From NCBI GenBank assembly GCA_017302435.1, contig JAFLDL010000009.1:43652-107651 (forward strand): a stretch of 64,000 nucleotides of DNA, in the 5' to 3' direction. A program made the translations under genes and the position numbers. Positions 9,319 to 36,721 of the stretch are shown here, one piece after another. How positions within the stretch are numbered: the first letter of the stretch is position 1; every line of letters starts with the position of its first letter. Source of the stretch: Candidatus Accumulibacter necessarius. Its GTDB lineage: Bacteria > Pseudomonadota > Gammaproteobacteria > Burkholderiales > Rhodocyclaceae. Under the pieces are notes generated by a model that had not been told where the DNA came from, ran no database searches, and saw only the letters and a list, made by a program, of their open reading frames with translations.

Positions 9319-9327
9319 CGTCCTGGC

Positions 9328-19843: not shown

Positions 19844-19847
19844 CTAG
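19844..19847. repeat. Target-site duplication CTAG (left copy)
   Basis: CTAG immediately outside the left IS end; the other copy is at 21392-21395. Deleting the IS and one copy restores the host reading frame. Confidence 0.85.
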
Positions 19848-21391
19848 CAGCCTGTCGGACTTGAGGTTTAGAAAACCGCCAAATTTCACAATGCGGAATG
19901 AACGGGCCGGATATTCTCGACTTTGCGGCCTTTTGGACGGTTTTCTCCTCGTTTTCCCTACTGTGGGCGCAATTTGGCCATGCGCTTCAAGTTCCACGCC
20001 AGGCAGACCAGCGTCCACTCGCCCGTGACCTTCTTCAATCCGCGCAGCGAGAACTGGCGAAAACCCATGACCGATTTGATGATGCCGAAGACCGGCTCGA
20101 CCGTCTGCTTGCGCAAGGCGTAGAGCGCTCGTCCGGCTTTGGTCTTCAAACGGTGAGACAGGGCCTGCACGGGTGTCGCATTTTCCGGCAGCGGCGCCGG
20201 TTCGCTGTGCCGCTCCCGCCAGTCAGGATGGTGCTCGTCGCGAGCCACCGCGATCACCGGATCAATGCTGGCCGCCTCGCACGCCTTGATGTTCTTCTCG
20301 CTGTAGAAGCCACTGTCGGCGATCAGACTTTCCACGGGGCCCAGTACCTCGGCCTGTGCCTTGAGCGTCGCCAGCATCGGTTCGACCTGCTCTTTGTCAT
20401 TGGGGGCTTGCGTCACGCCGACCGCGACCACCAGCATCGTCGCCGCATCAACCCCGGCCTGGGCGTTGTACGCCTGTTCGAAGCCGCCACCGGCCACCGG
20501 CATGATGCGGGATTCTTCGTCGGTCAGATTGATCTGGTCACTGTCCCGTGCGCCGGGCTCGGGGGCTTTCGGCGGCTTGCCGCCCAACTTCTTGCCGGCC
20601 GCTTCTTCCTTGGCCGCGCGCCGCGCCATTTTTTCGTCGTACTCGGCTTTCTCTCGCTGATAGCGCTCCGCGGCCCGGGCAGCAATCTTCGCCTTGGCCA
20701 CTGCCATCGCCGCCAGCCGATCTTCACGGCGCTTGAGTTCTTCGGGCAGGCTGACGCCGTCCGGAACGTCGGCCTGATCGGCCTGTTCCGCCAAACTGAA
20801 GAGTTCCTGCACCTCAGCCTTGAGCTGAGCTTCCAGCTTCTCGATGTGTCCGTGCGAGAGCGCGCTGTGCCGTGAGGCGTTGGCTTCGATCTTCGTGCCG
20901 TCAAGACAGACGTTTCCCAGCTTGAGCAGTTTCATTTCCTTGGCCATCGCCAGGACCTGAAGGAACAGGTCGCTCAGTTCGTCCAGAAAACGCCGGCGGA
21001 ACGTCGCCAGGCTGTCGTGATCGGGATGACTTCCGGCGGCAATGTAGCGGAAGGCCACCGAATCGTAGGTTGCCCGCTCCAGCCTGCGGCTGGAGAAAAT
21101 ACCCGTGGCGTAGCCATAGACCAGAATCGCCAGCAGGGTCGCCGGATGGTACGCCTTCGATCCACGTCCAGCGTACTGTCGCGTCAGCTTCGAAAGATCA
21201 AGCTCGTCGACCACCTCCACGATGAATCGCGCCAGGTGATCCTGGTTCAGCCAATCGTCAACCGATGGCGGCAGCAGGTAGTCGGTCTTACGGTCGGTGA
21301 CAATGAAGTGGGACATGCCGGACCTCGGTTGCTTCAACAGACATGATTATAGCATATCCGGTGGCGAGCAAACCGAAAGTCCGACAGGCTG
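19848..21391 (-). mobile_element. IS1182-family insertion sequence (1544 bp)
   Basis: Outer ends are CAGCCTGTCGGACTT and its complement; the terminal inverted repeats are 22 bp with two mismatches (19848-19869 and 21370-21391). It is flanked by a CTAG target duplication at 19844-19847 and 21392-21395. It carries one transposase gene. Intact ends, an intact transposase and a clean target duplication point to a recent insertion. Confidence 0.93.
19958..21316 (-). CDS. IS1182-family transposase
   Basis: A 452-residue DDE transposase. Residues 1-120 (MSHFIVTDRKTDYLLPPSVD, then YATGIFSSRRLERATYDSVAFRY, HPDHDSLATFRRRF) are the DUF772-like N-terminal region. The catalytic Asp residues are in NVCLDGTKIEANAS and SLIADSGFYSEKN, and the Glu is probably in KQTVEPVFGIIKSVMGFRQF. 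A charged helical insert (EKAEYDEKMARRAAKEEAAG) lies between. ATG 21316 has AGGT five bases upstream and fits the family start; ATG 21337 is the longer option. A TATAAT at 21348-21353 (minus strand) lies just inside the IS end. The gene appears functional. Confidence 0.93.
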   Translation of the reverse strand: MSHFIVTDRKTDYLLPPSVDDWLNQDHLARFIVEVVDELDLSKLTRQYAGRGSKAYHPATLLAILVYGYATGIFSSRRLERATYDSVAFRYIAAGSHPDHDSLATFRRRFLDELSDLFLQVLAMAKEMKLLKLGNVCLDGTKIEANASRHSALSHGHIEKLEAQLKAEVQELFSLAEQADQADVPDGVSLPEELKRREDRLAAMAVAKAKIAARAAERYQREKAEYDEKMARRAAKEEAAGKKLGGKPPKAPEPGARDSDQINLTDEESRIMPVAGGGFEQAYNAQAGVDAATMLVVAVGVTQAPNDKEQVEPMLATLKAQAEVLGPVESLIADSGFYSEKNIKACEAASIDPVIAVARDEHHPDWRERHSEPAPLPENATPVQALSHRLKTKAGRALYALRKQTVEPVFGIIKSVMGFRQFSLRGLKKVTGEWTLVCLAWNLKRMAKLRPQ

Positions 21392-23045: not shown

Positions 23046-23282
23046 ATGGCTACCGGCAAGACAGCCATCTTGAGTCTTCGCATCGAGCCGGGCCTGAAGG
23101 AAGCGCTACGCGTCGCCGCCGAGCACGAGCACCGCAGCATCGCCAACATGGTGGAAGTGATGATCCGCGAGTATTGCGGGCGGAACAGCGTCGCCCTTGC
23201 CGAACAACCTGCACCCGTCTACAGCAAGCAGTCTTCCGCAACCGACGAGACACAATCGCCAAGAACCAAGAAAGACGCATGA
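23046..23282 (+). CDS. Ribbon-helix-helix protein, likely operon regulator
   Basis: A 78-residue protein starting at ATG 23046, with AAGGAG six bases upstream. TAILSLRIEPGLKEALRVAA and HRSIANMVEVMIREYC form a ribbon-helix-helix fold: one strand with alternating hydrophobics, two helices, then a disordered polar tail. It is the first gene of the rightward eight-gene operon and overlaps the methyltransferase start by ATGA. Such proteins usually bind palindromes in their own promoter, so autoregulation is the simplest reading. TTGCGG (near 22965) and CCGCAA (near 23017) in the upstream region could be part of an operator. Confidence 0.82.
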   Translation: MATGKTAILSLRIEPGLKEALRVAAEHEHRSIANMVEVMIREYCGRNSVALAEQPAPVYSKQSSATDETQSPRTKKDA

Positions 23283-26026
23283 ACACCAAGGAAGTCATCG
23301 ACCGGATCTTCAAGGAGCCCGGCGTCCAGTTTGAACTGACGGCGTTCGAGAACCTCGGCAAACCCATCCACGAGATCCTCTTCGTCTACCCAAAGGCCGC
23401 CACGACTGGCAAGGATGCCGGCAAGACCAAGTACTACCTGAAGAGCTTGATCCCGTTCTCGACCGGCAACGACGAGGTGCAGGTCTATGCCGAGGGCGGA
23501 AAGTCGGCACCGGAGGAGATCGTCAGGCAGCTTTGGGTGTACAAGCTGATGCACCAGTACGGCTACCATGCTGACGAAATCGACCTGGAAAAAGGCGTTC
23601 AATTCGGCACCGAGATCGGCACCAAGGCCGCCGATATCATCGTCTATACGGATGCGACCAAGCTCACGCCGAAAATCATCGTCGAGTGCAAGAAACCCAA
23701 GCGCAAGGACGGTATCGAGCAGCTCAAGAGCTACATGAACGCCAAGGGCGCGCCGGTTGCGGTGTGGTCCAACGGGGCCGACAGCATCATCCTGTATCGG
23801 CCCTACCCGGCACAGTTCGACGACACGCTGTTCGACATCCCGAAGCGTGGGCAGGCGCCCAGAGATGTGCTCGAAGCCAGCAAGACCCTGCTGCAACTCA
23901 AGAAGGACTTCAACTTCAAGAAGATCATCCAGGACCTGGAAGAGCTGGTCCTGGCCGACAGCGGTAAGGACGAGTTCAATGAAATCTTCAAGCTGATCTT
24001 CGCCAAGATCTGGGACGAGAAGGAGGCGCTGGAGCATCGGGCAAACAAGGTGGTCGAGTTTCGCAAGGCCATTGACCCCGTGATCACCTACGGTCGTATC
24101 AACAACCTGTTTCACAAAGCCTGTGAAGAATGGCCCGGCATCTTCAAGCAAGGCGAGGACATCGAGTTAGCAAACCGCCACCTGCAGGTGTGCGTTGGCC
24201 CCATCGAGGGCGTGCGGCTGATGGGCTCGAACCTGCGCATCATGGACGATGCGTTCGAATATCTGCTGCCGACCGAGGCCAAGAAGAAGAAGGGACAGTT
24301 CTTCACGCCACGCCATGTCGTTGAAATGTGCGTGCGCATGCTCAACCCGAAGCGTACCGAATATGTCATGGACCCGGCGTGTGGGTCAGGCGGCTTTCTG
24401 CTGCACGCCATGGACTGGTGCTACCCCGCCATGGACAACGACCAGCGCGAACTGCGCAAGCACAGGTACGCGTCCAGGTACCTTTGGGGCATCGACTTTG
24501 AGCAGCGCGCCGCCAAGACTTCGCGTGCCCTGATGCTGATTGCCGGCGACGGGCACACCAACATCTTTGGCCCCGATGTCAGCAGCCTCGATCCTCGGAC
24601 CTGGTACGAAAACGCTTCGGGCCAGGCGCTGATGCAGGGCCTGCGCCAAGCCAGGCTGACCGCCACGAAGATTCCGGAAGGCGAGACCCTCAAGGACGAC
24701 GACAAAGCCTGGGAATATTTCGACGAGCTGAAATTCGACGTGATCCTCGCCAACCCGCCCTTCGCCGGCGAGATGAAGGATCGCAAGATGCTTGTGCGCT
24801 ACGAGTTGGCCAGGCCGGCGCTCAAACGCGCCGGCGACGACAAGCAACCGAAGGAAGAGCGCGACGTGCTCTTCATCGAACGTATCCTGAAGATGCTCAA
24901 GCCCGGCGGCCGTGCCGCGATCGTCCTGCCGCAGGGCAAGTTCAACAACTCCTCGCTGGCATTCATCCGCGAGTGGATTCTCAAGAAGGCGCGCTTGCTG
25001 GCCGTGGTCGGCCTGCACCCCAACACCTTCAAGCCGCATACCGGCACCAAGACCTCGGTGCTGTTCGTGCAGAAATACACGCCGGAACAGCTCGTCCGGA
25101 TTGCGCAGGTCCATGATCAGGTCGCCGGTGCCTCCCCGGATTATGAAGCGCAGATCAAGGTACTGCTGGCGGCCCATGATGCGGCGGCCGACGTACCGGA
25201 TGAAGCCATCCCCGAAGCGGTGGCCGACCTGATCGCCGAGAACTTCGGAGAGCCCGAACCGGACGAGGCCGCCAACGATAACGGAGGCGACGAAAACGGC
25301 GAAGGCGGCTACGAGGACATTCCCAGTGCCGACCAGGACCGCATCGCCGCCGCCGAAGCAAGGCTGAACGACCTCAAGGCCGCGCTCGTCAAGGCCAGGC
25401 AGCGGCTGATCAACCTCGACAGCGATCTCGAAGCGCTCGCGCTCAAGCAGTCGCAGGAAATCGACGCCTGCACGACACAATGGGGCGGCGAAAAGAGCGC
25501 GCTCCGCCAACAGCTCCAGGAAGTCCGCCAGCGCTATCGAATCAGCGTCCAGGAGATGAAGGAGGTGCAGAAAGCGCAGCAGCGAGTCATCAAGGTCGAG
25601 ATCAAGGTGCTGGAGAGGCAGATACCGCAAGCCGAAAGGGCACTGCAACTGCTCAGCAATCGCGGCAAGCTGCAACTGCTGCTCGCTGACGACGACTTGA
25701 TCGGCACGCTCAAGGAACGCTGGATCGCCGCCGAAGTCGCCAAGCAACTCGACTACCCGATTTTCATGGCGGTCAGCGAGCGCGGCGGCAAGGACAATTC
25801 CGGCGACTACAAGCATCTGCTGGATGAGCAAGGCAGCCTGGTCGAATTCCCAGACGGCCACCCGCAGGAAGGGCAGCTCGTCATCGATCAGGACCTGGTG
25901 AACTATGACTTGCGCGCTGCCGATCTGGCCGACGCGGCCACAATCCCTGACGATCGGTTGTGTGTGGCGGAGGCTTTCGTTCGCTTTGCTCAGGAGCAAG
26001 AGCTGGATTTTTGGGGAGGCAAGTAA
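23279..26026 (+). CDS. Fusion of HSDR_N-type nuclease domain and N6-adenine DNA methyltransferase
   Basis: A 915-residue protein starting at ATG 23279 (ATGA overlap). Residues about 1-185 match the type I restriction R-subunit N-terminal domain: AADIIVYTD (D119) and KIIVECKKPK (E136, K138) form a complete PD-(D/E)xK-like site. Residues about 230-700 are an HsdM-like methyltransferase with KKGQFFTPRHVVEMCV, SAM motif I (VMDPACGSGGFLLHAM, about 363-378) and catalytic NPPF (492-495). A long acidic and coiled-coil region follows (about 740-850), then a small domain containing WIAAEVAKQLDYPIFMA. It may therefore both mark and cut DNA, with specificity from the next gene's product. Type IIG or split type I arrangements are the nearest known designs. 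Nuclease activity is inferred. Confidence 0.88.
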   Translation: MNTKEVIDRIFKEPGVQFELTAFENLGKPIHEILFVYPKAATTGKDAGKTKYYLKSLIPFSTGNDEVQVYAEGGKSAPEEIVRQLWVYKLMHQYGYHADEIDLEKGVQFGTEIGTKAADIIVYTDATKLTPKIIVECKKPKRKDGIEQLKSYMNAKGAPVAVWSNGADSIILYRPYPAQFDDTLFDIPKRGQAPRDVLEASKTLLQLKKDFNFKKIIQDLEELVLADSGKDEFNEIFKLIFAKIWDEKEALEHRANKVVEFRKAIDPVITYGRINNLFHKACEEWPGIFKQGEDIELANRHLQVCVGPIEGVRLMGSNLRIMDDAFEYLLPTEAKKKKGQFFTPRHVVEMCVRMLNPKRTEYVMDPACGSGGFLLHAMDWCYPAMDNDQRELRKHRYASRYLWGIDFEQRAAKTSRALMLIAGDGHTNIFGPDVSSLDPRTWYENASGQALMQGLRQARLTATKIPEGETLKDDDKAWEYFDELKFDVILANPPFAGEMKDRKMLVRYELARPALKRAGDDKQPKEERDVLFIERILKMLKPGGRAAIVLPQGKFNNSSLAFIREWILKKARLLAVVGLHPNTFKPHTGTKTSVLFVQKYTPEQLVRIAQVHDQVAGASPDYEAQIKVLLAAHDAAADVPDEAIPEAVADLIAENFGEPEPDEAANDNGGDENGEGGYEDIPSADQDRIAAAEARLNDLKAALVKARQRLINLDSDLEALALKQSQEIDACTTQWGGEKSALRQQLQEVRQRYRISVQEMKEVQKAQQRVIKVEIKVLERQIPQAERALQLLSNRGKLQLLLADDDLIGTLKERWIAAEVAKQLDYPIFMAVSERGGKDNSGDYKHLLDEQGSLVEFPDGHPQEGQLVIDQDLVNYDLRAADLADAATIPDDRLCVAEAFVRFAQEQELDFWGGK

Positions 26027-27375
26027 TGGCCGCTGTGAATCTGGTACAGCTAAGCGAGGCAGTTGCCCACAACAGATTTTCAGCGGAGTTCTTTGATCCC
26101 CGTTACGTCTTCGAGCCAGTCGCAGGGTCTGAGTGGGCGCCAATTGGGCGCGTGCTGAAGAAATGCGAGTATGGCTTGTCGATTTCGATGAATTCCGTTG
26201 GCAAGGGATTCCCCATTTTCCGTATGAATGAGTTGGATGACTGCTTTGCGTTGCGGCCAGAAAAGTTCGCCAACATTTCACAGTCCGAATTCAATGCCAG
26301 CGCGCTTCAAGAAAATGATGTCCTGTTCAATCGAACGAATTCATTCGAGTTTGTCGGTAGAACGGGAATCGTCAAGGACCAGACAGATTGTACTTTTGCG
26401 TCGTACCTCATCCGACTTGTGCCTGATGCTGCGAGGCTATTGCCGGAATTTCTGACGGTTTACCTGAATACGCCATTTGGAATTGGACAGATCAAGCGGC
26501 GCGCAATGCGCTCGATCAATCAGGCGAATGTGAGTGGCTCAGAAGTACGAAAAATCCTTATTCCGCTCGTTGATCTTTCTGTGCAACAGGAGGTGGCTGA
26601 TCTTGTGAATGCCGCTTTCTCCAAACAGCGAGACGCGCTCAGTTACTTCGCTACAGCGCAGAGCTTTTTGGAAACAGAGCTTGGCCTGGACAAGCTGACC
26701 TTCCAGAAGCCGGTGGGTTACACCGCTCAGTTGAGGAACATCGAGGTGTCTCGGCGAATCGACCCGGAACATTACTTTCCGGCATTCAGCGCTTTTTGCG
26801 CAGCCTTGCCTTCTGGTGTCGCCCTTTCACCGCTAGCGAACCATCTTGATTTCTGCCAGCGAGGCAAGCAGCCGATCTATGCGAAAGCTGGCTTGCCGGT
26901 AATCAACTCGAAACACGTTCAGCCGAACCGGGTCATCATGGAAGGCAACCGTTTTGCCTTGTCGAATCCGGTCGATGATTTGCAGATTCGCAGCGGCGAC
27001 ACACTGATCAATGGAACCGGCCGCGGAACCATAGGGCGGGCGGCGCCTTACCTAAATGTCACGCCGGCGGTGGCGGACAACCACGTCACCATCCTCCGTT
27101 CGAATAGCTTGGACCCTGCCTATTTGTCTCTCTACCTCAATAGCGCTGCTGGGCAGATGCAGGTCGAGATGCATCAACGTGGCTCGTCGGGACAACTTGA
27201 GCTGTACCCGTTCGATATTCGAAAGTTTCTCGTATGGCCCGCGCCGACCGGATTGCAGCGAGAGCTGCGCGAGTTATACGACAAAGCGACGGCCGCAGAA
27301 CAGGAATCAAGACGACTGCTCGACCAAGCCAAAGCCTGTGTCGAACAACTCATCAAGGCCGCCGTCCAGCCATGA
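26026..27375 (+). CDS. HsdS-like restriction-modification specificity subunit
   Basis: A 449-residue protein starting at ATG 26026 (TAATG overlap with the methyltransferase stop; GGGGAGG upstream). Two target-recognition-like halves are seen. The first, about residues 1-205, includes FRMNELDDCF and QENDVLFNRTNS and ends with a helix (VQQEVADLVNAAFSKQRDAL). The second, about 245-440, includes QPIYAKAGLPVINSKHVQ, IRSGDTLINGTGRGTIGRA and a final helix (AAEQESRRLLDQAKACVEQL). This is the type I specificity layout: two DNA-reading domains joined by spacer helices, so a bipartite target is expected. The gene is more AT-rich at its start than its neighbours, as expected of a swapped specificity module. 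Confidence 0.9.
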   Translation: MAAVNLVQLSEAVAHNRFSAEFFDPRYVFEPVAGSEWAPIGRVLKKCEYGLSISMNSVGKGFPIFRMNELDDCFALRPEKFANISQSEFNASALQENDVLFNRTNSFEFVGRTGIVKDQTDCTFASYLIRLVPDAARLLPEFLTVYLNTPFGIGQIKRRAMRSINQANVSGSEVRKILIPLVDLSVQQEVADLVNAAFSKQRDALSYFATAQSFLETELGLDKLTFQKPVGYTAQLRNIEVSRRIDPEHYFPAFSAFCAALPSGVALSPLANHLDFCQRGKQPIYAKAGLPVINSKHVQPNRVIMEGNRFALSNPVDDLQIRSGDTLINGTGRGTIGRAAPYLNVTPAVADNHVTILRSNSLDPAYLSLYLNSAAGQMQVEMHQRGSSGQLELYPFDIRKFLVWPAPTGLQRELRELYDKATAAEQESRRLLDQAKACVEQLIKAAVQP

Positions 27376-28406
27376 GCGAGCAGATTCCCGACCCCGCCGC
27401 ACCGGGCAAAGGCCAGTTTCTGGTCTATGAAGCCGAGGACGGGCGCATCAAGATCGACGTGCGGCTGGACGAGGAAACGCTCTGGCTACCCCAGGCGCAA
27501 CTGGCGGAGTTGTTCCAGACCAGCCAGCAGAACATCAGCCTGCACATCCAGCACATCTACGAGGAAGGCGAACTGCTGCCGGAGACAACTCACAAGAAAT
27601 ACTTGTTGGTTCGCGTCGAGGGCGGGCGCGAGGTCAAGCGCCTCGTCGATCACTACAACCTCGACCTGATCATTTCGGTTGGCTACCGGGTGAAAAGCCA
27701 TGTCGCGACCCGCTTTCGCATCTGGGCGACGCAACGCCTCAAGGAGTACATCGTCAAGGGCTTCACGCTCGACGACGAACGGCTGAAGAACCCGCAGCAG
27801 CCCTTCGATTACTTCGAAGAGCTGACCCGCCGCATCCAGGACATTCGCACCTCGGAGCGGCGCTTCTACCAGAAGATCACCGACATCTACGCCACCAGCA
27901 TCGATTACGATCCGACGCTGGACATCAGCCTGACCTTCTTCAAGACCGTGCAGAACAAGATGCATTGGGCGATCACCGGCCAGACCGCCGCCGAGATCGT
28001 GCATGCGCGCGCCGATGCCGACAAACCCCACATGGGCCTGACCACCTGGCGTGGTGCAAAGGTGCGCAAGCAGGATGTCGCCATCGCCAAGAACTATCTG
28101 GCCGAAGACGAACTGCGGGCCTTGAACAACCTGACGGAGCAATACCTGATCTTCGCCGAGGGCCAGGCCATGCGGCGCATTGCCATGCACATGCGCGACT
28201 GGATCCAGAAGCTGGATGCCTTCCTGAACATCAACGACCGCGACATCCTGACCCATGCCGGGAAGATCTCGCATGAGATGGCCCAGCAGCGCGCGGAAAG
28301 CGAGTACGACCTGTATCACCGCCGACGGATCGAGGAGCAGGCGCGGGTTGGCAGCGACTTTGACCAGATGACGAAGAAATTGACAGACGACCGGAAGAAA
28401 TCATGA
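27372..28406 (+). CDS. RhuM-family protein
   Basis: A 344-residue protein starting at ATG 27372 (ATGA overlap). QFLVYEAEDGRIKIDVRLDEETLWLPQAQLAELF and SQQNISLHIQHIYEEGEL at the start look like a DNA-binding helix-turn-helix. Then come the RhuM core motifs: HYNLDLIISVGYRVKS, FRIWATQRLKEYIVKGF and RIQDIRTSERRFYQKITDIYATS. The family was named from Salmonella SPI-3 as a virulence protein, but most members lie next to restriction genes and their activity is unknown. Here it is embedded between the specificity subunit and the SMC-like ATPase, so it is probably part of the system and not a passenger. Confidence 0.88.
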   Translation: MSEQIPDPAAPGKGQFLVYEAEDGRIKIDVRLDEETLWLPQAQLAELFQTSQQNISLHIQHIYEEGELLPETTHKKYLLVRVEGGREVKRLVDHYNLDLIISVGYRVKSHVATRFRIWATQRLKEYIVKGFTLDDERLKNPQQPFDYFEELTRRIQDIRTSERRFYQKITDIYATSIDYDPTLDISLTFFKTVQNKMHWAITGQTAAEIVHARADADKPHMGLTTWRGAKVRKQDVAIAKNYLAEDELRALNNLTEQYLIFAEGQAMRRIAMHMRDWIQKLDAFLNINDRDILTHAGKISHEMAQQRAESEYDLYHRRRIEEQARVGSDFDQMTKKLTDDRKKS

Positions 28407-28597
28407 AGATGACCCTGGAGGACTCTCGGCTGTTGGCGGATCTGTGCGAGCAGCACGGGGTCAGCCCGGACAAGGTGCTGAAGCTGCTAGAGGCCGTGCG
28501 CGAATACGAGTTCAAGGATCGGCGCACGGGGGTGTATGACGCGCTGCGAGAGATTCTCAAGAGCACGCCGGCACGCAGTGGGGGGCGGTCAGCATGA
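28403..28597 (+). CDS. Small helical protein of the DndD/HerA operon
   Basis: A 64-residue protein starting at ATG 28403 (ATGA overlap). The sequence DSRLLADLCEQHGVSPDKVLKLLEAVREYE is an all-helical small domain with a basic Ser/Gly/Arg-rich tail. I recall small proteins of this kind being annotated only as associated with DNA-modification systems. No catalytic residues are evident. A bridging or regulatory role between the methyltransferase side and the ATPase side of the operon is a guess. Confidence 0.75.
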   Translation: MKMTLEDSRLLADLCEQHGVSPDKVLKLLEAVREYEFKDRRTGVYDALREILKSTPARSGGRSA

Positions 28598-29229
28598 GCG
28601 ACAGGCCAGACATCGATCGCTTCGTCAAGGATCCCAGCCTGCTGGTGGAACTGTGCCGCAGCGTCGTTGATGAACTCGATGCCAATACCGATGACTCGAA
28701 CGTCAGCGAGCGAGAGGCGCAGCTCAGGGAGATCTCGAAGGCGGTCGAGCGTCTCGAGAAGCTGGGGGTAGCAGTGCCCAATGTGCTGCGCGCCGAAAAG
28801 ACACGCCTGGCAGCATCGCTTGCTGTCCATGCCGATTCGACCCAGGCGCTGGCTCAGCTTGCCGGCGAGTTCACCGATATCCTCAAGGAACTGAAGGCTC
28901 GCTTGGGGCAAGAGCCAGCCACAGCAGAACCCAGGGCCAAGGGCAAGCGCTCACGAGCGCCGAAAACTGACAAGAACGTGCTCAGGGAGCACATCATCCG
29001 CGCGCTGCAGAAGCTCGGCGGCAGTGGTCGGGTGGGGGATGTCATCGAAGCGATGGGGCGGCAACTGGAGGGCAAGCTAATGCCCAGCGATCTGCAATGG
29101 CGCGAGGCGACCAAGGAATATGTCTGGCAGAACAACACCAAGTGGGAGCGCTATCGCATGACGCAGGACGGCACGCTGCGCAACGATTCGCCTTATGGCA
29201 TTTGGGCGCTCACGGAGAATGCGAAATGA
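28594..29229 (+). CDS. Two-part protein with C-terminal winged-helix domain
   Basis: A 211-residue protein starting at ATG 28594 (ATGA overlap). Residues about 1-110 are helical and acidic (SLLVELCRSVVDELDANTDD, REAQLREISKAVERLEKLG). A basic linker (RAKGKRSRAPKTDKN) joins to residues about 130-211: LREHIIRALQKLGGSGRVGDVIEAMGRQ, then YVWQNNTKWERYRMTQDGTL and a final YGIWALTENAK. This second half follows the winged-helix pattern found at the N terminus of Mrr-type restriction proteins, so it probably contacts DNA. It has no nuclease motif of its own and is presumed to be a DNA-binding adaptor for the ATPase encoded next. Confidence 0.74.
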   Translation: MSDRPDIDRFVKDPSLLVELCRSVVDELDANTDDSNVSEREAQLREISKAVERLEKLGVAVPNVLRAEKTRLAASLAVHADSTQALAQLAGEFTDILKELKARLGQEPATAEPRAKGKRSRAPKTDKNVLREHIIRALQKLGGSGRVGDVIEAMGRQLEGKLMPSDLQWREATKEYVWQNNTKWERYRMTQDGTLRNDSPYGIWALTENAK

Positions 29230-31226
29230 AATTCCGCAAGCTGACCATCGAGAACTACAAGTCCTTTCAGTTTCCGACCGAGATCGTCTTTCCGATCGGA
29301 GAAGACGGACGTAGCATCTTCCTGATTGGCGGCATGAACGGCGCGGGCAAGACCTCGATCATGGAAGCGGTGACGTATTGCCTCTATGGCGGCAAGGCCG
29401 ACGACATTTTCCGCAACATCAACCGGCGCGAGAAAGCCAAGGGCAATGCCAACGTGGCATTCGAGATCGCCATCGCGATGGATGACGGCTCGGAATTGGT
29501 CGTCAAGCGATCGTGGGCGGCTGGCGCGATGAGCGAACCCCGGCCGCGCGACCTGACCGAACGGCTGGTTGTGGTGCGCGACGGCAGGCGGGTATCGGTG
29601 CAGAACCAGGAGATTTGGCAGGATTTCATTCGCGCGGCGATTCCGCCGGGAATCACCCAATTTTTCTTCTTCGACGGCGAAAAAATTCAGGAGATTGCGG
29701 CCGATGATCATTCGGAAGTGCGCCTGAAATCCTCGCTGGAAGCCGCGCTGGGCATTCAGTACATCAACCGGTTGGCGAGCGATATCGTCTACATCAAGCA
29801 GGAGGAACGCAAAGGCTTTATCGAGATTTCCGACGAAGACCTGGAGTTCAAGCAAAGCGAACTGAAGCGCGAGAAGAGCAAGCTGGCGCGAAAAGTTCAG
29901 GAACGAGAGGCTCTGCGCGCCGAACTGGAAGGCTTCAAAGGGCAGTTGGATGAAGCCAGGAAACGCTTCGAGGCGAGCTTCCAGGTCGCTCCGGAATCGC
30001 GGGAAGCCATGCGCGAGCAGGAGAAGAAGCGCATCTCGGCCACCAACCGGCTCGCGCAGGTAGAGAGCGAGATTCGCGGGCTATGCGAAAAGGCGCTGCC
30101 CTTCAGTATCGCCGGCAAGCTGTTCGACGGCATACGGCGGCAGATTGAGGCGGAGCGCGAGTTGGCCAGCGGCGAGGCCATCAAGGAGAACGCTGCGACG
30201 CTCGCGAAGCGAATCGTCCGCGTCGTCGAGGAGCCGGAGCCGATCTACACCGAGAGGCTGTCTGCCGAGCGAATGGCCGAACTGGAGCGGCGTATCTTCC
30301 GGTTGCTCAAGGAAGGCGATCCGGGGTCGGATATCACCAAGGTGCTGGACCTGTCGGAACGTGACGCGGCGCGCGTGCTGAACCGTATGGAGGCTCTGGA
30401 AGGTAGTGACGTCTTTGTCCTGAAACCCTTGCTGGACGAAGCGCACGGCCTGGAGGCGCAGCAACGACAGTTTGAAGGGTTTGGCCAAGGGGGGGGCCTG
30501 ACCAGCACCGAGCACGAGCTGTTTGACGAACTGCAGAGCGTGATGGATGGTTGCTCCACGCAGATCGGGCGCAAGACTGAGCAACTGCGCCTGGTCGAGG
30601 AAGACATTCTGACACTCGGCAAGAAGATCAGCGACATCGAGGTGGAGATCGAGAAACTCTACGAGAAGCATCACGTATCGAAAGAGAAGGCGGAATTCAT
30701 CGAAGAGTGCGACGCGATCGCCAGCGTGCTCAATCAGTTCATCGTGCGCTTGCGCAAGAACAAGGTGCATTTGCTCCAGGAAAAGACCTTCGAAATGTAC
30801 CGGCTGTTGTCCAGCCGTAGCGGGCTGATCAAGGACATCAGCATCGACGACAAGACCTACGAGGTCCGGATCACTGATCGCAACGGTCATGAGATTCGAA
30901 AATCATCCATGGCGGCCGGCGAAAAGGAGGTTTTCGCCGTGTCGCTGCTCTGGGGCTTGGCGCAGACGAGCGAACTCAAGCTGCCGATCATCATCGATAC
31001 CCCGCTGTCGCGTCTCGACAGTGCGCACCGCGACAACATCGTGAACCACTATTTCCCCAACGCTGGCGAGCAGGTGGTGATTCTGTCCACCGATACGGAG
31101 ATTGACACCGACTACTACCGCTCGCTGAAGCCGCGGTTGAGCGGTGCGGGCTGCCTGGAGTTCGACCAGAGACAGGAACTGACAACGTTCCGCAAGGGCT
31201 ACTTCTGGGAGAAGAACCATGGCTGA
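29226..31226 (+). CDS. DndD-like SMC/Rad50-type ATPase
   Basis: A 666-residue protein starting at ATG 29226 (ATGA overlap). Walker A is GGMNGAGKTS (35-44). TQFFFFDGEKIQEIAADD is characteristic of DndD and related Rad50-like ATPases. Long coiled coils occupy about 200-560 (SELKREKSKLARKVQEREAL and others). The signature-like MAAGEKEVFAVSLLWGLAQ and Walker B LPIIIDTPLSRLD (from 586) complete the ABC-type head. DndD acts in phosphorothioate DNA modification with DndC/E, but no DndA, DndB or DndC is present here. The protein more likely serves as a DNA-scanning or loading ATPase coupled to the methyltransferase/nuclease. It overlaps the next gene by 8 bp. Confidence 0.9.
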   Translation: MKFRKLTIENYKSFQFPTEIVFPIGEDGRSIFLIGGMNGAGKTSIMEAVTYCLYGGKADDIFRNINRREKAKGNANVAFEIAIAMDDGSELVVKRSWAAGAMSEPRPRDLTERLVVVRDGRRVSVQNQEIWQDFIRAAIPPGITQFFFFDGEKIQEIAADDHSEVRLKSSLEAALGIQYINRLASDIVYIKQEERKGFIEISDEDLEFKQSELKREKSKLARKVQEREALRAELEGFKGQLDEARKRFEASFQVAPESREAMREQEKKRISATNRLAQVESEIRGLCEKALPFSIAGKLFDGIRRQIEAERELASGEAIKENAATLAKRIVRVVEEPEPIYTERLSAERMAELERRIFRLLKEGDPGSDITKVLDLSERDAARVLNRMEALEGSDVFVLKPLLDEAHGLEAQQRQFEGFGQGGGLTSTEHELFDELQSVMDGCSTQIGRKTEQLRLVEEDILTLGKKISDIEVEIEKLYEKHHVSKEKAEFIEECDAIASVLNQFIVRLRKNKVHLLQEKTFEMYRLLSSRSGLIKDISIDDKTYEVRITDRNGHEIRKSSMAAGEKEVFAVSLLWGLAQTSELKLPIIIDTPLSRLDSAHRDNIVNHYFPNAGEQVVILSTDTEIDTDYYRSLKPRLSGAGCLEFDQRQELTTFRKGYFWEKNHG

Positions 31227-32748
31227 CCGTCTCTACACATCGAGCGAGTCCGATGAAGTACTGAGCGCACTCCGTTTCGAAACCAAACTCGAGAAGGTCA
31301 CGCTGGCGCGGATCGCCTTCACCCTTTCTTTGGTGAAAGACGGAGCGAGTGTTCCTCAAAGCCCGAGCTTCGGCGGCGGCGAAATGAAGCGGCCGACTTT
31401 CGTCGCTGACGATGAGGTGTTTCTGCGCACGCTGATTGCCCACACCTACGGCAAGCGGGACTTCACCGAGGATGAATTCTTCTCCAATCGATCGATCGTC
31501 AAGAACCACATCGACAGCGGCGCGGCTCTGCTGGCGCAGATGTTCCATGAGACAGGCAACAGCGGCGAAGCCCTGATCCGGCGGCTGGTTGATGAGGCGG
31601 AATTCTCCGGCCGGCGCGAGCAACTCGGCAGTGGCCTCGACATCTTCATCGGACGGACGCTATTGCAGCGGGCTGAGCTGGTCATGGAATTGAACAACAC
31701 CACGAGGCACGCCAATTCACACTTGGCCATCATGGGCACGCCCGGCGTCGGCAAGACGCAGTTCCTGCTGAAAATATTGACCGACATCCGTATACAGTCG
31801 AGTTTCCAGACCAACTTCATCTACTTCGACTACAAGGGCGACGTGGTTGACAACGCAAGGTTCTTGGAACTAGCGCGGGTACAGCCTTTTCGCTTGCTGC
31901 AGGGCGTGCAGAGTCTGCCGATCAATCCTTTCATCCTGCCGGCGTACGACGAGCAGACGATCAACGTGTCGGCGCGGGAGAAGGCCGAGAGCTTTGCGTC
32001 AATCAACAGCAGACTGGGCCCCGTGCAGAAGGGCGCACTGACCGAGGCGATTCGGGTCGCCTACGCCAAACGCGCCGGTTCGCCTGCGCCGTATCCGGAT
32101 TTCCCCGACGTTCTCGAAGTCGCGATGGCGGCGTACGAAGAGGATGGCAAGAAGGATGATAGCCTCATTGAGGTACTGCGGGACTTGTCCGACTTCGATC
32201 TGTTCTGGCGCCACGGCAGTGAAGGCACCCCGATGGAGCGACTCGCAAACCGAACGATGTTGATCGACGTGCACGCAATGCCCGTTCTCAAGGAGCTGGT
32301 GGCGTACCTCGTCATCGAGCGGCTCTACAAAGAGATGGCAACGCTTCCCGACAGCCCGGTTATGGAGGGCCGGCGGACGATTCGAACCATCCTGGTCATC
32401 GACGAGGCACACAACTACCTCAGCCAGAAAAACATGTTCCTTCAGCGCATCATTCGCGAAGGGCGTTCAAAAGGGGTGGCCGTGTTCTTCGCCAGTCAGT
32501 CGCCGAACGACTATCAGCAAAAGTTCTTCGATTTCCAGCAACTGCTGGAGTTCGCGTACATCTTCCAATGTAACGGCGTTGCAGCAGCGTCGGTTCAAGA
32601 CATCCTGGGTTGCAGCGCCAAGACCGCGAGAGAGCTACAGACCGAGATTGCGCGACTGGAGCCATGGCAAGTCATCGCACGCAGTCAGGAGAAGACGGAG
32701 GAGTTCGTCAAGTTCACGGCTGAAGCGTTCTACAAGAGCTACTCGTAA
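31219..32748 (+). CDS. DndE-like domain fused to HerA/FtsK-type ATPase
   Basis: A 509-residue protein starting at ATG 31219 inside the end of the DndD-like gene. Residues about 15-115 (KLEKVTLARIAFTLSLVKDG, then RSIVKNHIDSGAALLAQMF) resemble DndE, a small DNA-binding protein. Residues about 140-505 are a HerA-type hexameric translocase with Walker A GTPGVGKT (173-180), FIYFDYKGDV, Walker B ILVIDEAH (391-398) and a Gln/Arg-rich FFASQSPNDYQQKFFDFQQ sensor region. DndH-like HerA ATPases drive restriction in Dnd systems. Here the fusion would load onto DNA and translocate, either to recruit the nuclease or to block phage DNA. It is the last gene of the operon. Confidence 0.87.
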   Translation: MADRLYTSSESDEVLSALRFETKLEKVTLARIAFTLSLVKDGASVPQSPSFGGGEMKRPTFVADDEVFLRTLIAHTYGKRDFTEDEFFSNRSIVKNHIDSGAALLAQMFHETGNSGEALIRRLVDEAEFSGRREQLGSGLDIFIGRTLLQRAELVMELNNTTRHANSHLAIMGTPGVGKTQFLLKILTDIRIQSSFQTNFIYFDYKGDVVDNARFLELARVQPFRLLQGVQSLPINPFILPAYDEQTINVSAREKAESFASINSRLGPVQKGALTEAIRVAYAKRAGSPAPYPDFPDVLEVAMAAYEEDGKKDDSLIEVLRDLSDFDLFWRHGSEGTPMERLANRTMLIDVHAMPVLKELVAYLVIERLYKEMATLPDSPVMEGRRTIRTILVIDEAHNYLSQKNMFLQRIIREGRSKGVAVFFASQSPNDYQQKFFDFQQLLEFAYIFQCNGVAAASVQDILGCSAKTARELQTEIARLEPWQVIARSQEKTEEFVKFTAEAFYKSYS

Positions 32749-32825
32749 TCAATACGCCGGTAGGTCTACCCAAGATCAAGACAGGAAGCCCGATCACCGT
32801 ATCACCAGCACCAACTCTCTGTCGT

Positions 32826-34088
32826 TTACGCCGCGCCACGAATCGGCTTGATCACCGCATCGGTCGGCACCGTCGCGCAATACACGGCCCACTCCGCCAT
32901 CAGTGCGGCACGCTTGGCGAACTGCGAACCGCGCTGGTAGGCACGTTCGACAGCATCCGGCAATTGGTGCGCCAGCGCGTGCTCGGCAACCTCTCGCGGG
33001 TAATTGGTGGTCTCTGCCGCCCACATACGGAAGCTGCTACGGAAGCCATGAACGGTAATGCCTTCGCCGTTGGCAGCTGCCCAGACCGGCTTGTCGTCGC
33101 CGTTCATGCGCCGGATCACGGCAGTCAGCGACATGTCCGACAAGGGTTGGCCTTTCGTACCGGCGAATACAACGTCGGTATCACTGTCTTTCGGCATTGA
33201 CGCCAGCAAGGCCAGCGCGGCATCGCTCAAGGGAACCTGATGTTCACGTTTGGCTTTCATGCGCTCGGCCGGAATCGTCCAGACCTTGCCAGCCGTATCG
33301 AACTCGGCCCACCGAGCGCCTCGCACTTCCCCCGACCGGCAAGCGGTGAGAATGGCGAATTCGAGCGCTCGGGCGGACACACCCTCACGTACGCGCAGGG
33401 CAGATATGAACGCACCGATGCGCGGCCACGGTAGCGACGGATGATTCTTCGTTCGGCTCGACTTGCTGATGGTTGCCAGTAAGTTTTCCAGATGGCCTTT
33501 CCAGCGGGCAGGATTCTCGCCGGTACGGTAGCCGCTGGTGGTCGCCCAGCCCAGCACTGACTCGATACGCCCGCGCACTCGACTGGCGGTTTCGGTCTTG
33601 CTCTCCCATATAGGTGCAAGACATTTCACTACAAGGCCGGTATCGACCTCGGCCACGGGGAAATGGCCGAATACCGGACTGACGTAGGTACTGAGTGTGT
33701 TGGTCCACTGGTCGCCATGCTTGGCGTTTTTCCAGCCCGCCTTGTGGGCCAGGATGTACGCCTCGGCACACTGATCGAAAGTCATCATCTTGGCGGCGGC
33801 CAGCGCGGCGGCGATCTGGTTCTGCTTCTTGGCCGCCAAAGGATTGATGCCGTCGACAAGCAGCTTCCGTGCGTCCAGCGCCTTTTGCCGCGCCTCAGCC
33901 AGACTGACGGTATGCGTCGGCCCCAACCCCATCCCGAACGGCTTACCGGCCACCATGTAACGAAACAGCCAGGACTTCGCGCCCGTGGCGGTGATCTGGA
34001 GTGTCAAGCCGCCACCATCGCCATAGAGCCCAGGCTTGGTGAGCTTGCTGACTTGCAGTGCAGAAAGTCGTTGCTGTTGGCGTGCCAT
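32826..34088 (-). CDS. P4-type tyrosine integrase
   Basis: A 420-residue integrase. The N-terminal DUF4102 domain (LTKPGLYGDGGGLTLQITATG, SLAEARQKALDARKLL) binds arm sites. A core-binding SAM-like domain follows, then the catalytic domain with Arg in ILTACRSGEVRGARW, the His-x-x-Arg box in VHGFRSSFRMWA, His in EHALAHQLPD and the nucleophile Tyr in ERAYQRG. The gene reads inward from the right end, 154 bp from attR. It recombines the 13-bp core in tRNA-Ser and would mediate excision together with the AlpA-like protein. All catalytic residues are present, so it should be active. Confidence 0.95.
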   Translation of the reverse strand: MARQQQRLSALQVSKLTKPGLYGDGGGLTLQITATGAKSWLFRYMVAGKPFGMGLGPTHTVSLAEARQKALDARKLLVDGINPLAAKKQNQIAAALAAAKMMTFDQCAEAYILAHKAGWKNAKHGDQWTNTLSTYVSPVFGHFPVAEVDTGLVVKCLAPIWESKTETASRVRGRIESVLGWATTSGYRTGENPARWKGHLENLLATISKSSRTKNHPSLPWPRIGAFISALRVREGVSARALEFAILTACRSGEVRGARWAEFDTAGKVWTIPAERMKAKREHQVPLSDAALALLASMPKDSDTDVVFAGTKGQPLSDMSLTAVIRRMNGDDKPVWAAANGEGITVHGFRSSFRMWAAETTNYPREVAEHALAHQLPDAVERAYQRGSQFAKRAALMAEWAVYCATVPTDAVIKPIRGAA

Positions 34089-34100
34089 GCTATCCGCTCC

Positions 34101-34120
34101 ACTATCAAAATGACTATCAA
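34101..34120. repeat. Tandem ACTATCAA motifs, likely integrase arm sites (right)
   Basis: ACTATCAA at 34101-34108 and again at 34113-34120, spaced 12 bp as in the left pair (13087-13110). Further GACTATC/GACTATA motifs follow near 34151 and 34204. They sit in the integrase promoter region, so they could also allow autoregulation. Confidence 0.6.
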
Positions 34121-34241
34121 ACTATAGCCGGATTTGACGGGTTTGTATAGGACTATCTTGGACGCCTGTATTCTATATCTTGTTGTTATGTATTGTACTT
34201 TATGGACTATACGGGATTCTGTCGGACTTCTACAAGGCGGA

Positions 34242-34254
34242 CACCGCTTCCGCC
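34242..34254 (+). repeat. attR: 13-bp direct repeat, right island boundary
   Basis: CACCGCTTCCGCC, identical to tRNA-Ser positions 13020-13032. Chromosomal genes resume immediately to the right. Confidence 0.85.
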
Positions 34255-34340
34255 GGATAAAGCAGTACCGATTGGCATCGCGACCGAAAGGTCTGACCGT
34301 CGTTGAGAGTGCCGCGAAGCGACGCGACGCGATGCCCTGA

Positions 34341-35684
34341 TCAGCGCGAGCGCGCCAGATCGAAGTCGGCGGTGTTGCGTTCGTCGATGAACAGGCGAGC
34401 CGGTTCTGGCGGCTCGCCGTTACGGCAGGTGACCACCACGTTGGCCAGCACCTGCTTCTTCTGCAGCACTTCGACGGCACAGCGGCCGTAGATGCTCTCG
34501 ATGGTCGCCAGCAGGTTGCGCGAGTAGGGCGTGGCGAGGGCGCTGTCGAGAATCAGGTTGGCAATCAGCAGTCCATCGGGTTCAAGTACCCGGCGCGTCG
34601 CCTGCCAGAATTCGCGCGTGACCAGGTGGCCGGGGATCGACGAGTGGGCGCCGTAGACGTCCACCAGCATGGCAGCGAAGCGCTCCTCGGTCCGGATCAC
34701 GAAGCGGCGTGCATCGTCGGCGATGAAGTCGCCGCGCGCGGCTGTGTGGAGAAAATGCTTTTCGGCGATGCCGCGGACCGCCGGGTCGATATCGACATAG
34801 GTGTAATGGTTGCGCGGTTCGCGGTGCGACAGCGTGAAGCCGCCGGCGCCGAGTACCAGAATCCGGCGGTCACGGAAGCCAAGGTCATCGAGCAGGAGAC
34901 TGCGAACGTGCCGGATGTAGCGTGCGTAGTGTGGCGGGTCTGACTCGTCGATCAATGAGGCGAACGAGTTGTTGTTCTTGAAGGCTTGGCCGTTGATCGC
35001 ACCGTCGTATTTGGCCGGCACCACCAGATAGCTGGCGTAAGCCGTTTCGATTTCCGGGCGCAGCCAGGCATTGGCGACAACGGCCAGGGTGATGACCGTC
35101 AAGCCGGCGGTGGTGGTGGCCCAGCCGCGACCGCGCAACAGCACGAAGCCGACGACCAGCAACAGCGCGCAGAGCGCCACGGCCGCCGACACGCCCAGCC
35201 ATTGCATCACCAGCAGCGACAAGGACAGCGAACCGAGAAAGGAGCCGAGCGTGGAGTAGTAAAGTGCCTGTCCGCTGGCCTCGCCGACGCGTTCGTGCTG
35301 TAGCAGATTAGTCAGGATGGGTACGGTCTGCCCGAGCAGCCAGGCGATCGGACAGAGTACGCCGGCAATGAGCACCAGGTAGGCGAGTTCCGGCGGACGG
35401 ATTGCAGCAAAGATAACATCAACGCTCACCCCGGCCAGACCGACGCCGATCAGCAAGGCCGCGAGCAGAAAGTTCCTCGCCACGACATCGAGATACTCGT
35501 CGTCGATCTTTGCCCCGGCGTGGTAACCCAGGGCCAGGGCAAGAAGAAAGAAACCGATCGTGGGTGCGGTGACGACGATCGAGCTGCCCATGTGCGGGAT
35601 GATCTGGCGCAACGCGATGACTTCGGCGCCAAGCGAGCAGAAGCCTTCAATGAAGACAATGAGAAAGAGCAGCAGACGTGGCAT
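34341..35684 (-). CDS. Membrane-fused spermidine synthase-like protein
   Basis: A 447-residue protein. The first ~210 residues hold six or more transmembrane segments (LLLFLIVFIEGFCSLGAEVIAL, IGFFLLALALGYHAG, YLVLIAGVLCPIAWLLG). The soluble C-terminal half is a Rossmann-type aminopropyltransferase fold with RRILVLGAGGFTLSHRE, HYTYVDIDPAVRGIAEKHF and MLVDVYGAHSSIPGHL. The fused-membrane spermidine synthase group is common in proteobacteria, and its true substrate is usually unproven. It ends just right of the island boundary and was probably the original neighbour of tRNA-Ser. A second, soluble member of this fold lies at 48982-49866. Confidence 0.86.
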   Translation of the reverse strand: MPRLLLFLIVFIEGFCSLGAEVIALRQIIPHMGSSIVVTAPTIGFFLLALALGYHAGAKIDDEYLDVVARNFLLAALLIGVGLAGVSVDVIFAAIRPPELAYLVLIAGVLCPIAWLLGQTVPILTNLLQHERVGEASGQALYYSTLGSFLGSLSLSLLVMQWLGVSAAVALCALLLVVGFVLLRGRGWATTTAGLTVITLAVVANAWLRPEIETAYASYLVVPAKYDGAINGQAFKNNNSFASLIDESDPPHYARYIRHVRSLLLDDLGFRDRRILVLGAGGFTLSHREPRNHYTYVDIDPAVRGIAEKHFLHTAARGDFIADDARRFVIRTEERFAAMLVDVYGAHSSIPGHLVTREFWQATRRVLEPDGLLIANLILDSALATPYSRNLLATIESIYGRCAVEVLQKKQVLANVVVTCRNGEPPEPARLFIDERNTADFDLARSR

Positions 35685-35717
35685 GCGGGAGTGTGCGCCG
35701 GGCGGAGTAAGCCGGCA

Positions 35718-36599
35718 CTATACTCCAGCACCACCTTCACGAAGGAATCGGGGCAGGAGTTCGGGCGGCAACTGCAGCCGATGGAGCAGGGTTTCGCGGC
35801 TGATGTGCAGCAGGTCCTGGACGGCTTTCAGGTCATCCGGTATGGCCGGGTCAGCCCAGCCGTCGATCGAGTGGCGAGCGAGGTTGACAGCCAGTTTCAC
35901 GTTCTGCACCCTGGGCAGATGCGCGTTGCCGTCGTCGATCAGCTTCGTCAGCAGCTCGGGTAGATGCCAGGCGTGGCAGAGCGCCAACTGCAGTTCGGCC
36001 AGCGGAAACCCGAGCACCTCCTGCTGCACGCTGGCGCTGCGCAGTGATCTGTCGGCCTGCAGCCGCGAGCGAATCTCGATTGCCAGATCCGGCGCAAAGC
36101 ACCATAGCAGGATCTCTGCGAGGTCATGCAGCAACGCGGCGAGAGCCACTTCCTCAACGTTCATGTCATGCCGCGCGAACGCCCACTCGTGGGCGTAGCG
36201 TGAGGCACGTTGTGTGCGCAGGATCACCTGCAGTACGCCGAGCAGGGCTTGCGGCTGACCACTGAGCATGCTCTCGAGCGTCAGCGGCCGGTCGAACTGC
36301 CGGAAAAAAGGGTCGACGCCGAGCATCATCACCGCGCTGGCGATATTCGTGATGTCGCTTTGCAGGCGGCGACGGCTGCCAGCCTGAATATAGGCCAGGA
36401 CGCGGATGGCCAACAACGGGTCCTGTAGCACGATGTCAGTGATGTCGCGGCCGGTGACCCGGTCGATATTCTGACGCGCCTCGTCGAGGCGGCGCGCCGT
36501 CTGGCGTAGAACGGGCATTTCTCTGCCGCTGACGAAGGCCAGCCAGCCAGCCAGGTCGCGGGGCGGGTGCTTGTCGAACATGGGTGTCGCCTTCAACAA
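35718..36599 (-). CDS. HDOD-domain protein
   Basis: A 293-residue protein. Most of it is an HDOD domain, a phosphohydrolase-like fold with degenerate metal ligands: DIVLQDPLLAIRVLAYIQAGS, SDITNIASAVMMLGVDPF, EEVALAALLHDLAEILLW and LQLALCHAWHLPELLTKLID. LLHDLAE keeps an HD pair. HDOD proteins take part in signalling, often linked to cyclic-di-GMP or stress pathways. ATG 36599 (MLKATP...) or ATG 36581 (MFDKHPP) could be the start. It is 34 bp from the membrane aminopropyltransferase-like gene on the same strand. No effector domain is attached, so its partner is unknown. Confidence 0.87.
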   Translation of the reverse strand: MLKATPMFDKHPPRDLAGWLAFVSGREMPVLRQTARRLDEARQNIDRVTGRDITDIVLQDPLLAIRVLAYIQAGSRRRLQSDITNIASAVMMLGVDPFFRQFDRPLTLESMLSGQPQALLGVLQVILRTQRASRYAHEWAFARHDMNVEEVALAALLHDLAEILLWCFAPDLAIEIRSRLQADRSLRSASVQQEVLGFPLAELQLALCHAWHLPELLTKLIDDGNAHLPRVQNVKLAVNLARHSIDGWADPAIPDDLKAVQDLLHISRETLLHRLQLPPELLPRFLREGGAGV

Positions 36600-36721
36600 G
36601 GGCGTCCGAAGAATGCGCTGACTGCGGAACAGCTTGCCATGCCGCTGGCCAGCGCGATCAGGCAGATGGTAGTCCCAGCCTCGTCAGCCTGCAAGCTGCC
36701 GGTGGCGGTTTGCCTGAAAGG

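Follow-up and report, generated by a model that had tools for sequence, protein, structure and literature searches.

The 64,000-nucleotide stretch of the Candidatus Accumulibacter necessarius genome analysed here (contig JAFLDL010000009.1; the window) contains a compact operon that places DndD and DndE, the motor proteins of phosphorothioation systems, behind an N6-adenine methyltransferase and its specificity subunit. Re-reading of the window confirmed eight open reading frames (ORFs) at 23046-32748, all on the forward strand (Table 1) and, as an earlier note on this DNA had claimed, overlapping at every one of their seven junctions: five are ATGA overlaps (23279-23282, 27372-27375, 28403-28406, 28594-28597 and 29226-29229), genes 2 and 3 join at TAATG (26024-26028), and genes 7 and 8 share 8 bp (31219-31226). 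The operon is more than a chance arrangement because the same gene order is found again in other phyla. Versions of it exist in many unrelated bacteria, and it probably represents an undescribed defence system. Domains were called by PADLOC, Pfam and NCBIfam profile scans of the eight proteins against curated cut-offs; the PADLOC results for genes 2, 3, 4 and 7 are the best 25 rows, and statements of absence rest on Pfam and NCBIfam.

Table 1. Genes and domains of the operon, in positions of the window.
Feature	Position	Strand	Description
Gene 1	23046..23282	+	Small RHH-like protein, 78 residues; putative autoregulator; optional
Gene 2	23279..26026	+	Nuclease-N6-adenine methyltransferase fusion, 915 residues, Type IIB RM-like
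HSDR_N_2 PD-(D/E)XK domain of gene 2	23510..23803	+	Residues 78-175; D119, E136, K138
N6_Mtase best-scoring stretch of gene 2	24644..25087	+	Residues 456-603; NPPF at 492
Predicted long helical hairpin of gene 2	25325..25648	+	Residues 683-790; recalls the BsaXI 'paddle'
Gene 3	26026..27375	+	HsdS-like specificity subunit
Gene 4	27372..28406	+	RhuM-family protein, PADLOC PDC-S05; variable cassette slot
Gene 5	28403..28597	+	Sp-DndD small protein, 64 residues; free-standing equivalent of the DndC C-terminal tail
Gene 6	28594..29229	+	Coiled-coil and winged-helix protein, 211 residues; putative reader; RAMA in some relatives
Gene 7	29226..31226	+	DndD ATPase
Gene 8	31219..32748	+	DndE-HerA fusion, 509 residues
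DndE domain of gene 8	31228..31545	+	Residues 4-109
HerA/FtsK-like ATPase of gene 8	31642..32733	+	About residues 142-505; GTPGVGKT, VIDEAH

Our main survey scanned 84,980 species genomes of GTDB with a three-row alignment and gave 65 confirmed stretches at 64 loci (numbered with an L), many of them on short contigs and one, L084 (27% identity), outside the clade. The loci belong to Pseudomonadota, Thermodesulfobacteriota, Bacillota, Bacteroidota, Nitrospirota, Planctomycetota, Chloroflexota, Acidobacteriota, Kiritimatiellota, Myxococcota and Cloacimonadota, a list that binning errors may inflate, as most of the loci come from metagenome-assembled genomes. Thirty-five loci were evaluable: in these, the start of DndD (real or extrapolated) is preceded by 6,000 bases or more of the locus. 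A gene 2 homologue, counted as present at a minimum of 100 residues and 45% identity, lies upstream of DndD on the same strand in 29 of these 35, with zero exceptions to the order, and overlapping or near-touching junctions are found in many loci. Thus, the methyltransferase and ATPase halves are co-conserved, a point on which, according to the earlier note, its proposal could have failed. Sp-DndD is encoded in 33 of the 35 evaluable loci (exceptions L032 and L085), and 27 of the 29 methyltransferase-positive loci have an HsdS match, the shortest of 84 residues; of the two that do not, L053 holds an S-sized ORF in place that escaped the search, and L032 lacks one. The count of 29 includes L032 despite its having only 121 methyltransferase residues; there, at 8089-10008, the N-terminal region of the methyltransferase is fused into C-terminal DndD, by deletion or as an assembly chimera. 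RhuM, with at least 100 matched residues, is found in 12 of 35 loci, and the RHH gene in five by tblastn, or seven with weaker ORF matches added. The eight ORFs of the earlier note are all real, but the conserved core is about five to six genes, with RhuM and RHH optional.

Three DndC queries (tblastn) found DndC in 0 of the 64 loci, many of which are short. As a positive control, the same queries found it in five of five DndC-type loci, three of which were query sources and were each also found by other queries. Gene 8 has few close relatives: in samples of the order and the class, it matched at E<=1e-20 in 5 of 300 and 5 of 369 genomes, respectively, the window's own genome being in both and some of the matches being DndC-type or DndH-type. 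A relative with the same gene order is present in Methylotuvimicrobium buryatense 5G (L042), which is genetically tractable. Searches of viral contigs with gene 8, a gene 8 alignment and a gene 2 alignment found no relative, and plasmid tblastn with gene 8 gave distant rows only, in 16 records, all below 60% identity. One degraded copy was seen: G367:C10:3003-3714 (L020) holds a broken DndE-HerA gene in two frames with one in-frame stop, and the rest of the operon is absent from the 12 kb seen.

The two halves also diverge together. Pairwise distances between loci correlate strongly for methyltransferase and DndE-HerA (r=0.81, n=25), methyltransferase and DndD (r=0.77, n=23), and DndD and DndE-HerA (r=0.95, n=39), and less so for HsdS with either the methyltransferase (r=0.45, n=16) or DndE-HerA (r=0.55, n=18), each with p=0.001 over 999 permutations of loci with intact genes (L017 and L019, copies of L042 and L063, and L084 were left out). 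In the 16 loci that hold all four genes, pairwise identity averages 70% for the methyltransferase, 73% for DndD and 75% for DndE-HerA, and 31% for HsdS. Rapid change in S next to an enzyme that stays stable usually signals shifting sequence specificity, and the hypervariability of S is as would be expected of a self/non-self specificity factor.

A tree of DndE-HerA separates 47 clade rows, grouped by sequence and not each with a visible methyltransferase, from 5 DndC-type rows by a branch with support of 100/100 (L017 and L019 left out). The row nearest to gene 8 is from Candidatus Accumulibacter aalborgensis (93%). Phyla are intermixed inside the clade, and thus horizontal spread of the gene set is likely. 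L056, L061, L062 and L063 form one subclade, in which L056 and L062 are too short upstream for the methyltransferase to be judged; L061, L062 and L063 each carry Sp, gene 6, DndD and DndE-HerA, and may represent a motor-only branch.

Genes 2 and 3 appear to make up the writing and cutting half of the system. Gene 2 scores 77.3 bits for HSDR_N_2 (cut-off 25) and 128.3 for N6_Mtase (cut-off 20.4), and gene 3 scores 26.2 for Methylase_S (cut-off 22). Among proteins of solved structure, gene 2 is best matched by RM.BsaXI, which is the RM subunit of a Type IIB enzyme and nearly equal in length (916 residues to 915); the alignment is weak by sequence across the nuclease part. BsaXI is an (RM)2S trimer that no longer cleaves when E73, D90, E105 or K107 of its nuclease domain is changed to alanine (PMC11997821). 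Within the gene 2 family, the motif D..E-x-K (D119, E136 and K138) is kept in 24 of 25 rows, the exception, L052, having no such stretch, and NPPF is present in all 25. The predicted hairpin of gene 2, modelled from an alignment that left out L028 and L052, has a local predicted local distance difference test score (pLDDT) of about 80, the whole model scoring 57.4; a helical paddle is described for BsaXI in the same source, as is the working of Type IIB enzymes with no need for an ATP-driven motor (PMC11997821). By sequence, genes 2 and 3 thus resemble a Type IIB restriction-modification (R-M) enzyme rather than Type I. The earlier note had described the operon as being without HsdR. That holds for the helicase, as the complete Pfam lists of the eight proteins contain no HsdR-kind helicase domain, but not for the nuclease, which is present as the conserved PD-(D/E)XK domain inside gene 2.

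Genes 5, 7 and 8 make up a Dnd module. Gene 7 matches DndD (TIGR03185) at 368.7 bits (cut-off 245.85), and among its best 25 PADLOC rows the best DndD model leads the best PbeC model by a narrow margin (441.9 versus 410.5 bits). Gene 8 matches DndE in Pfam (PF08870, 38.7 bits, cut-off 25), but the NCBIfam DndE model scores under its cut-off (TIGR03184, 30.1 against 71.85). The C-terminal part of gene 8 is a DptH/HerA-like ATPase, with DptH (7es4) as best solved relative by sequence, and the protein is 24-27% identical to the DndE-HerA proteins of DndC-type loci (L006, L009, L010 and L011). A DndE-HerA fusion beside a DndD-related ATPase has already been reported for phosphorothioation systems (PMC10853773); what is new here is its apparently undescribed pairing, together with DndD, with N6-adenine methylation.

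Gene 5 scores 52.1 bits for Sp-DndD (PF20306, cut-off 27.2) and its alignment with the 481-position DndC profile spans positions 404-455. In DndC-type loci L009 and L010 the order is DndC, Sp, DndD, DndE-HerA, with the DndC of L009 aligning to profile positions 12-374 only and the tail being a separate gene; in two other DndC proteins the tail is fused. In L006 the order is DndC, DndD, DndE-HerA, with no separate Sp found by BLAST. Additionally, the sole DndC match in the M. buryatense genome (G546) falls at its own gene 5 homologue. The profile alignment, the separate and fused tails of DndC loci and this match together indicate that gene 5 is, in sequence terms, the tail of DndC without DndC, and we infer that its role is to dock the modification enzyme to DndD. 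PADLOC model PDLC03333 ('MTase_II') was dropped as evidence of methyltransferases carrying the gene 5 tail, as a DndC protein matches most of it. Labelled Type II methyltransferase, the model is covered by that DndC protein over positions 30-398 of 544 and is probably a mislabelled DndC-type model.

Gene 6 is a putative reader of methylation state. In its predicted model, a loose linker connects a helical N-terminal half with a winged helix (pLDDT 85.5; predicted template modelling score 0.43). Foldseek with this model gave zero matches at E<=0.001; its highest-ranking rows are largely winged-helix domains, with DpnI in 28th place (E 0.43). The winged helices of DpnI and its kin are proven to sense N6-methyladenine (PMC11037411). 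At least one gene 6 family member occurs in 24 of the 35 evaluable loci. In an alignment of 50 of the 51 ORFs found (L063 was dropped as the same record as L019), the N-terminal part is kept and the C-terminal part varies, with Mrr_N in 25 of 50, RAMA in 9 of 50 (Pfam, E<=0.01) and a third, helix-turn-helix-like type found downstream of DndE-HerA in some loci; these Pfam counts are firmer than our per-locus class labels, which are short ad hoc motif patterns. A second gene 6 paralogue, with a different helix-turn-helix-like domain at its C-terminus, lies just 3' of DndE-HerA in L040 (11553-12200), L035 (11554-12234), L037 (10001-10672), L053 (10349-10984) and L073 (11553-12200).

The optional genes differ in character. 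Gene 1 matches RHH_5 (PF07878) at 22.1 bits, under the cut-off of 26. Gene 4 matches Virulence_RhuM at 373 bits, and its slot is occupied in other loci by different cassettes, of which Pfam checks covered ten proteins of a larger set: DarT with a macro-domain protein in L040 (Pfam-checked) and in L045 and L068 (by likeness), a zeta-toxin-like protein in L043, DUF4258 in L017/L042 (Pfam-checked, with a shortened RhuM ahead) and L044 (by likeness), and an NOV_C protein in L059. In L024, RhuM has next to it a YhcG-type gene and another that by eye is PIN-like. The loci with DarT/DarG-like toxin-antitoxin genes in or near the slot (L040 5469-7163, L045 4067-5760, L068 7674-9368 and L035 5395-7031, the last with a Pfam-checked macro domain and otherwise assigned by likeness) are those of sulphate-reducing bacteria.

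A tyrosine recombinase (phage-type integrase) at 32826-34088 and a DDE transposase at 19958-21337 flank the operon, and a window scan gave a RepB-primase match, under cut-off, in 17622-20018. With these genes as flanks, a mobile island around the operon is plausible. Our search for attachment sites gave no island ends, with no exact repeat of at least 14 bp between 12901-13400, which holds a tRNA-Ser, and 31501-37000; promoter and terminator scans gave counts not above those of shuffled sequence. The same presumed island encodes a PIN_8-domain protein of 658 residues on the reverse strand (13370-15346), adjoining the tRNA-Ser (12946-13033), which is possibly another defence or toxin gene and has no PADLOC match at E<=1e-5.

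The profile scans that the earlier note had called for do not place the full set in any named system, and, in line with that note, none of the systems compared fits (Dnd phosphorothioation, MADS, PbeABCD, BREX and Type I R-M); nor did we find a description of the set in the open-licence PMC literature. DndABCDE shares with the operon DndD and a DndE partner, recognized by TIGR03185 and PF08870 over cut-off and by TIGR03184 under it, but differs in having the DndC sulphurtransferase beside them. Closer in layout are the Dnd loci with a DndE-HerA fusion (L006, L009, L010 and L011), in which DndD is likewise followed by DndE-HerA, with Sp-DndD ahead in L009-L011. Those loci carry DndC and presumably write phosphorothioate, whereas in DndC's place this operon has the N6-adenine methyltransferase, the S subunit and gene 6. 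The pairing of Dnd-type motors with N6-adenine methylation in the absence of DndC, as first noted from the window alone, is thus supported by the profiles and by the lack of a DndC match in the loci and the host.

Coupling to methylases has been reported for the CxC clade, with cytosine methylases, and CxC/PbeABCD systems share with the operon an ABC ATPase and DndE core joined to base methylation, along with a small protein (PMC10853773). They are described with a CxC-clade ATPase, cytosine-5/N4 methylases and the HKD-SF2 helicase PbeA (PMC10853773), whereas this operon has a DndD-type ATPase, an N6-adenine methyltransferase with an S subunit, and DndE fused to HerA; the Pfam lists of the eight proteins contain no HKD or SF2 domain. 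Type IIB enzymes such as BsaXI, which cleave to either side of their site, share the RM fusion of about 915 residues, the separate S subunit, the N-terminal PD-(D/E)XK domain and the hairpin near the C-terminus, but this operon also encodes the DndD/DndE-HerA motor and a putative reader. For BREX, PglX models match at 36.8 bits against a cut-off of 500, Pfam finds no PglZ domain, and BrxC is not among the NCBIfam matches listed.

We therefore propose, with a probability of roughly 0.6, that the operon encodes a restriction-type defence system guided by N6-methyladenine, the scanning motor of Dnd systems having switched from serving phosphorothioation to serving N6-adenine methylation. The products of genes 2 and 3 would assemble into a Type IIB-like (RM)2S enzyme; its S subunit would determine the bipartite sequence at which adenine is methylated, and the N-terminal PD-(D/E)XK domain of gene 2 would be able to cut DNA. 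DndD and DndE-HerA would scan or translocate DNA with ATP, and gene 5, a DndC remnant without the catalytic domain, would link the modification enzyme to DndD as a docking piece; the parts may assemble as a single complex. Gene 6 may use its winged-helix domain (RAMA in relatives) to report whether the site is methylated. Unmarked DNA would then license motor-driven engagement and cleavage, with marked host DNA spared, and the changing cassettes of the gene 4 slot, several of them toxin-like, plausibly act as back-up. The parts themselves, their mobility, the hypervariability of S and the toxin-type cassettes suggest a function in defence.

Other explanations were weighed against this proposal. 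MADS was compared first and rejected, and we consider it very improbable that the operon is a diverged member. The two share an N6-adenine methyltransferase (MAD2), an S subunit (MAD5) and a HerA-like ATPase match (mad8), and window proteins give distant profile matches to all three, but MAD2 scores 261.1 bits against a cut-off of 720 and MAD5 87.7 against 400. MAD3, MAD6 and MAD7 have no NCBIfam match at E<=0.1 among the eight proteins (for gene 8, among the best 25 of 28 rows). All three are present in a reference MADS locus (L094), which encodes MAD2, MAD3, MAD5, the MAD6 kinase, MAD7 and an 1831-residue MAD8. It came from a search of 200 genomes with the MAD2 model, in which three reached E<=1e-100 and two of these passed the cut-off. 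BLAST finds no relative of gene 5, 6 or 7 in L094, whereas our operon has DndD, DndE and Sp-DndD. That DndD, DndE and Sp-DndD are all Dnd parts could instead suggest a phosphorothioation system served by DndC and DndA in trans, with the methyltransferase as passenger. This we rejected as barely credible: no DndC match is found near the operon or in the whole host assembly (4.56 Mb, 88 contigs, completeness 100% by estimate), and the only one in M. buryatense is its gene 5 homologue. Less remote, but still quite unlikely, is a BREX-like defence with no cleavage by gene 2, in which methylation is the self mark, DndD/DndE-HerA blocks replication, conjugation or packaging of unmarked DNA, and the nuclease domain is structural or a licensing switch. 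The lack of an HsdR-kind helicase in the Pfam lists is consistent with it, and HerA/FtsK parts have been proposed to intercept DNA that is being moved (PMC10853773). However, retention of the PD-(D/E)XK motif in nearly all gene 2 family members suggests cleavage.

An ordinary two-gene Type IIB-like R-M enzyme that merely neighbours an unrelated Dnd-derived module, the halves acting separately, is unlikely, yet it is the explanation to which several loci lend some weight. Plasmid D of Trichormus variabilis carries a 74% identical RM-type methyltransferase and an S subunit beside ParA/ParB (L089 60-4198, and L090), with no relatives of genes 5-8 in L089 and L090, which together cover the plasmid (two records, one species), and with zero matches in the gene 8 search of its record. 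Thus, the writer/cutter half can occur on its own. Conversely, six of the 35 evaluable loci (L035, L051, L061, L067, L073 and L085) have no gene 2 match at E<=1e-4. Among these, L085 is a small fragment and L035 retains a 47-residue piece of HsdS. In L061 a methyltransferase match, at whatever identity, is lacking from the 8 kb upstream of DndD, and in L063 none is found in 3.9 kb; as both fall in one subclade, loss or separation of the methyltransferase occurs. In L022, the locus closest to ours, the motor is 93-95% identical, the methyltransferase 79% and S 47%, which suggests that methyltransferase and S may be exchanged as a unit. A modular system and a loose association would account for these cases equally well. 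They are set against the upstream methyltransferase of 29 loci over many phyla, the tight junctions, the co-divergence of methyltransferase and DndE-HerA, and the lack of DndC beside the DndE-HerA clade.

Further observations weigh against our proposal of a methylation-guided, motor-driven system. At least 800 methyltransferase residues are found in just 25 of the 35 evaluable loci, and of four clade members in the class sample only two have both halves (G367 is broken; G497, which is L063, is the motor-only case above). Eleven of the 35 loci have no gene 6 family ORF, gene 6 itself matches Mrr_N weakly (21.4 bits, under the cut-off of 29.5), and RAMA, a proposed reader of N6-methyladenine, showed no preference for that base in a 2023 structure paper (PMC9963953). 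The predicted model of gene 2 is poor, too weak for a fold search. Finally, four HsdR genes score over cut-off on other host contigs and could in principle serve in trans.

The locus is in effect a natural swap experiment, in which motor and tail are the same and the chemistry is different, and it could thereby serve as a test of the role of the motors. A 2024 reappraisal of Dnd asks whether DndD- and CxC-centred systems serve phosphorothioation alone (PMC10853773). Tentatively, and at somewhat less than even odds, we suggest that the Dnd machine is modification-agnostic: the DndC docking tail would have been kept and the sulphur chemistry lost, and the motor rewired to an N6-adenine Type IIB R-M enzyme with swappable readers (winged helix or RAMA), giving a widespread, undescribed form of ATP-driven restriction with a Rad50-like ATPase and a HerA translocase in place of the SF2 (superfamily 2) helicase. 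If this is true, DndD and DndE would be a general DNA-scanning engine and not part of the sulphur chemistry, and an ATP-driven kind of restriction-modification, present in many phyla, would have gone unnamed.

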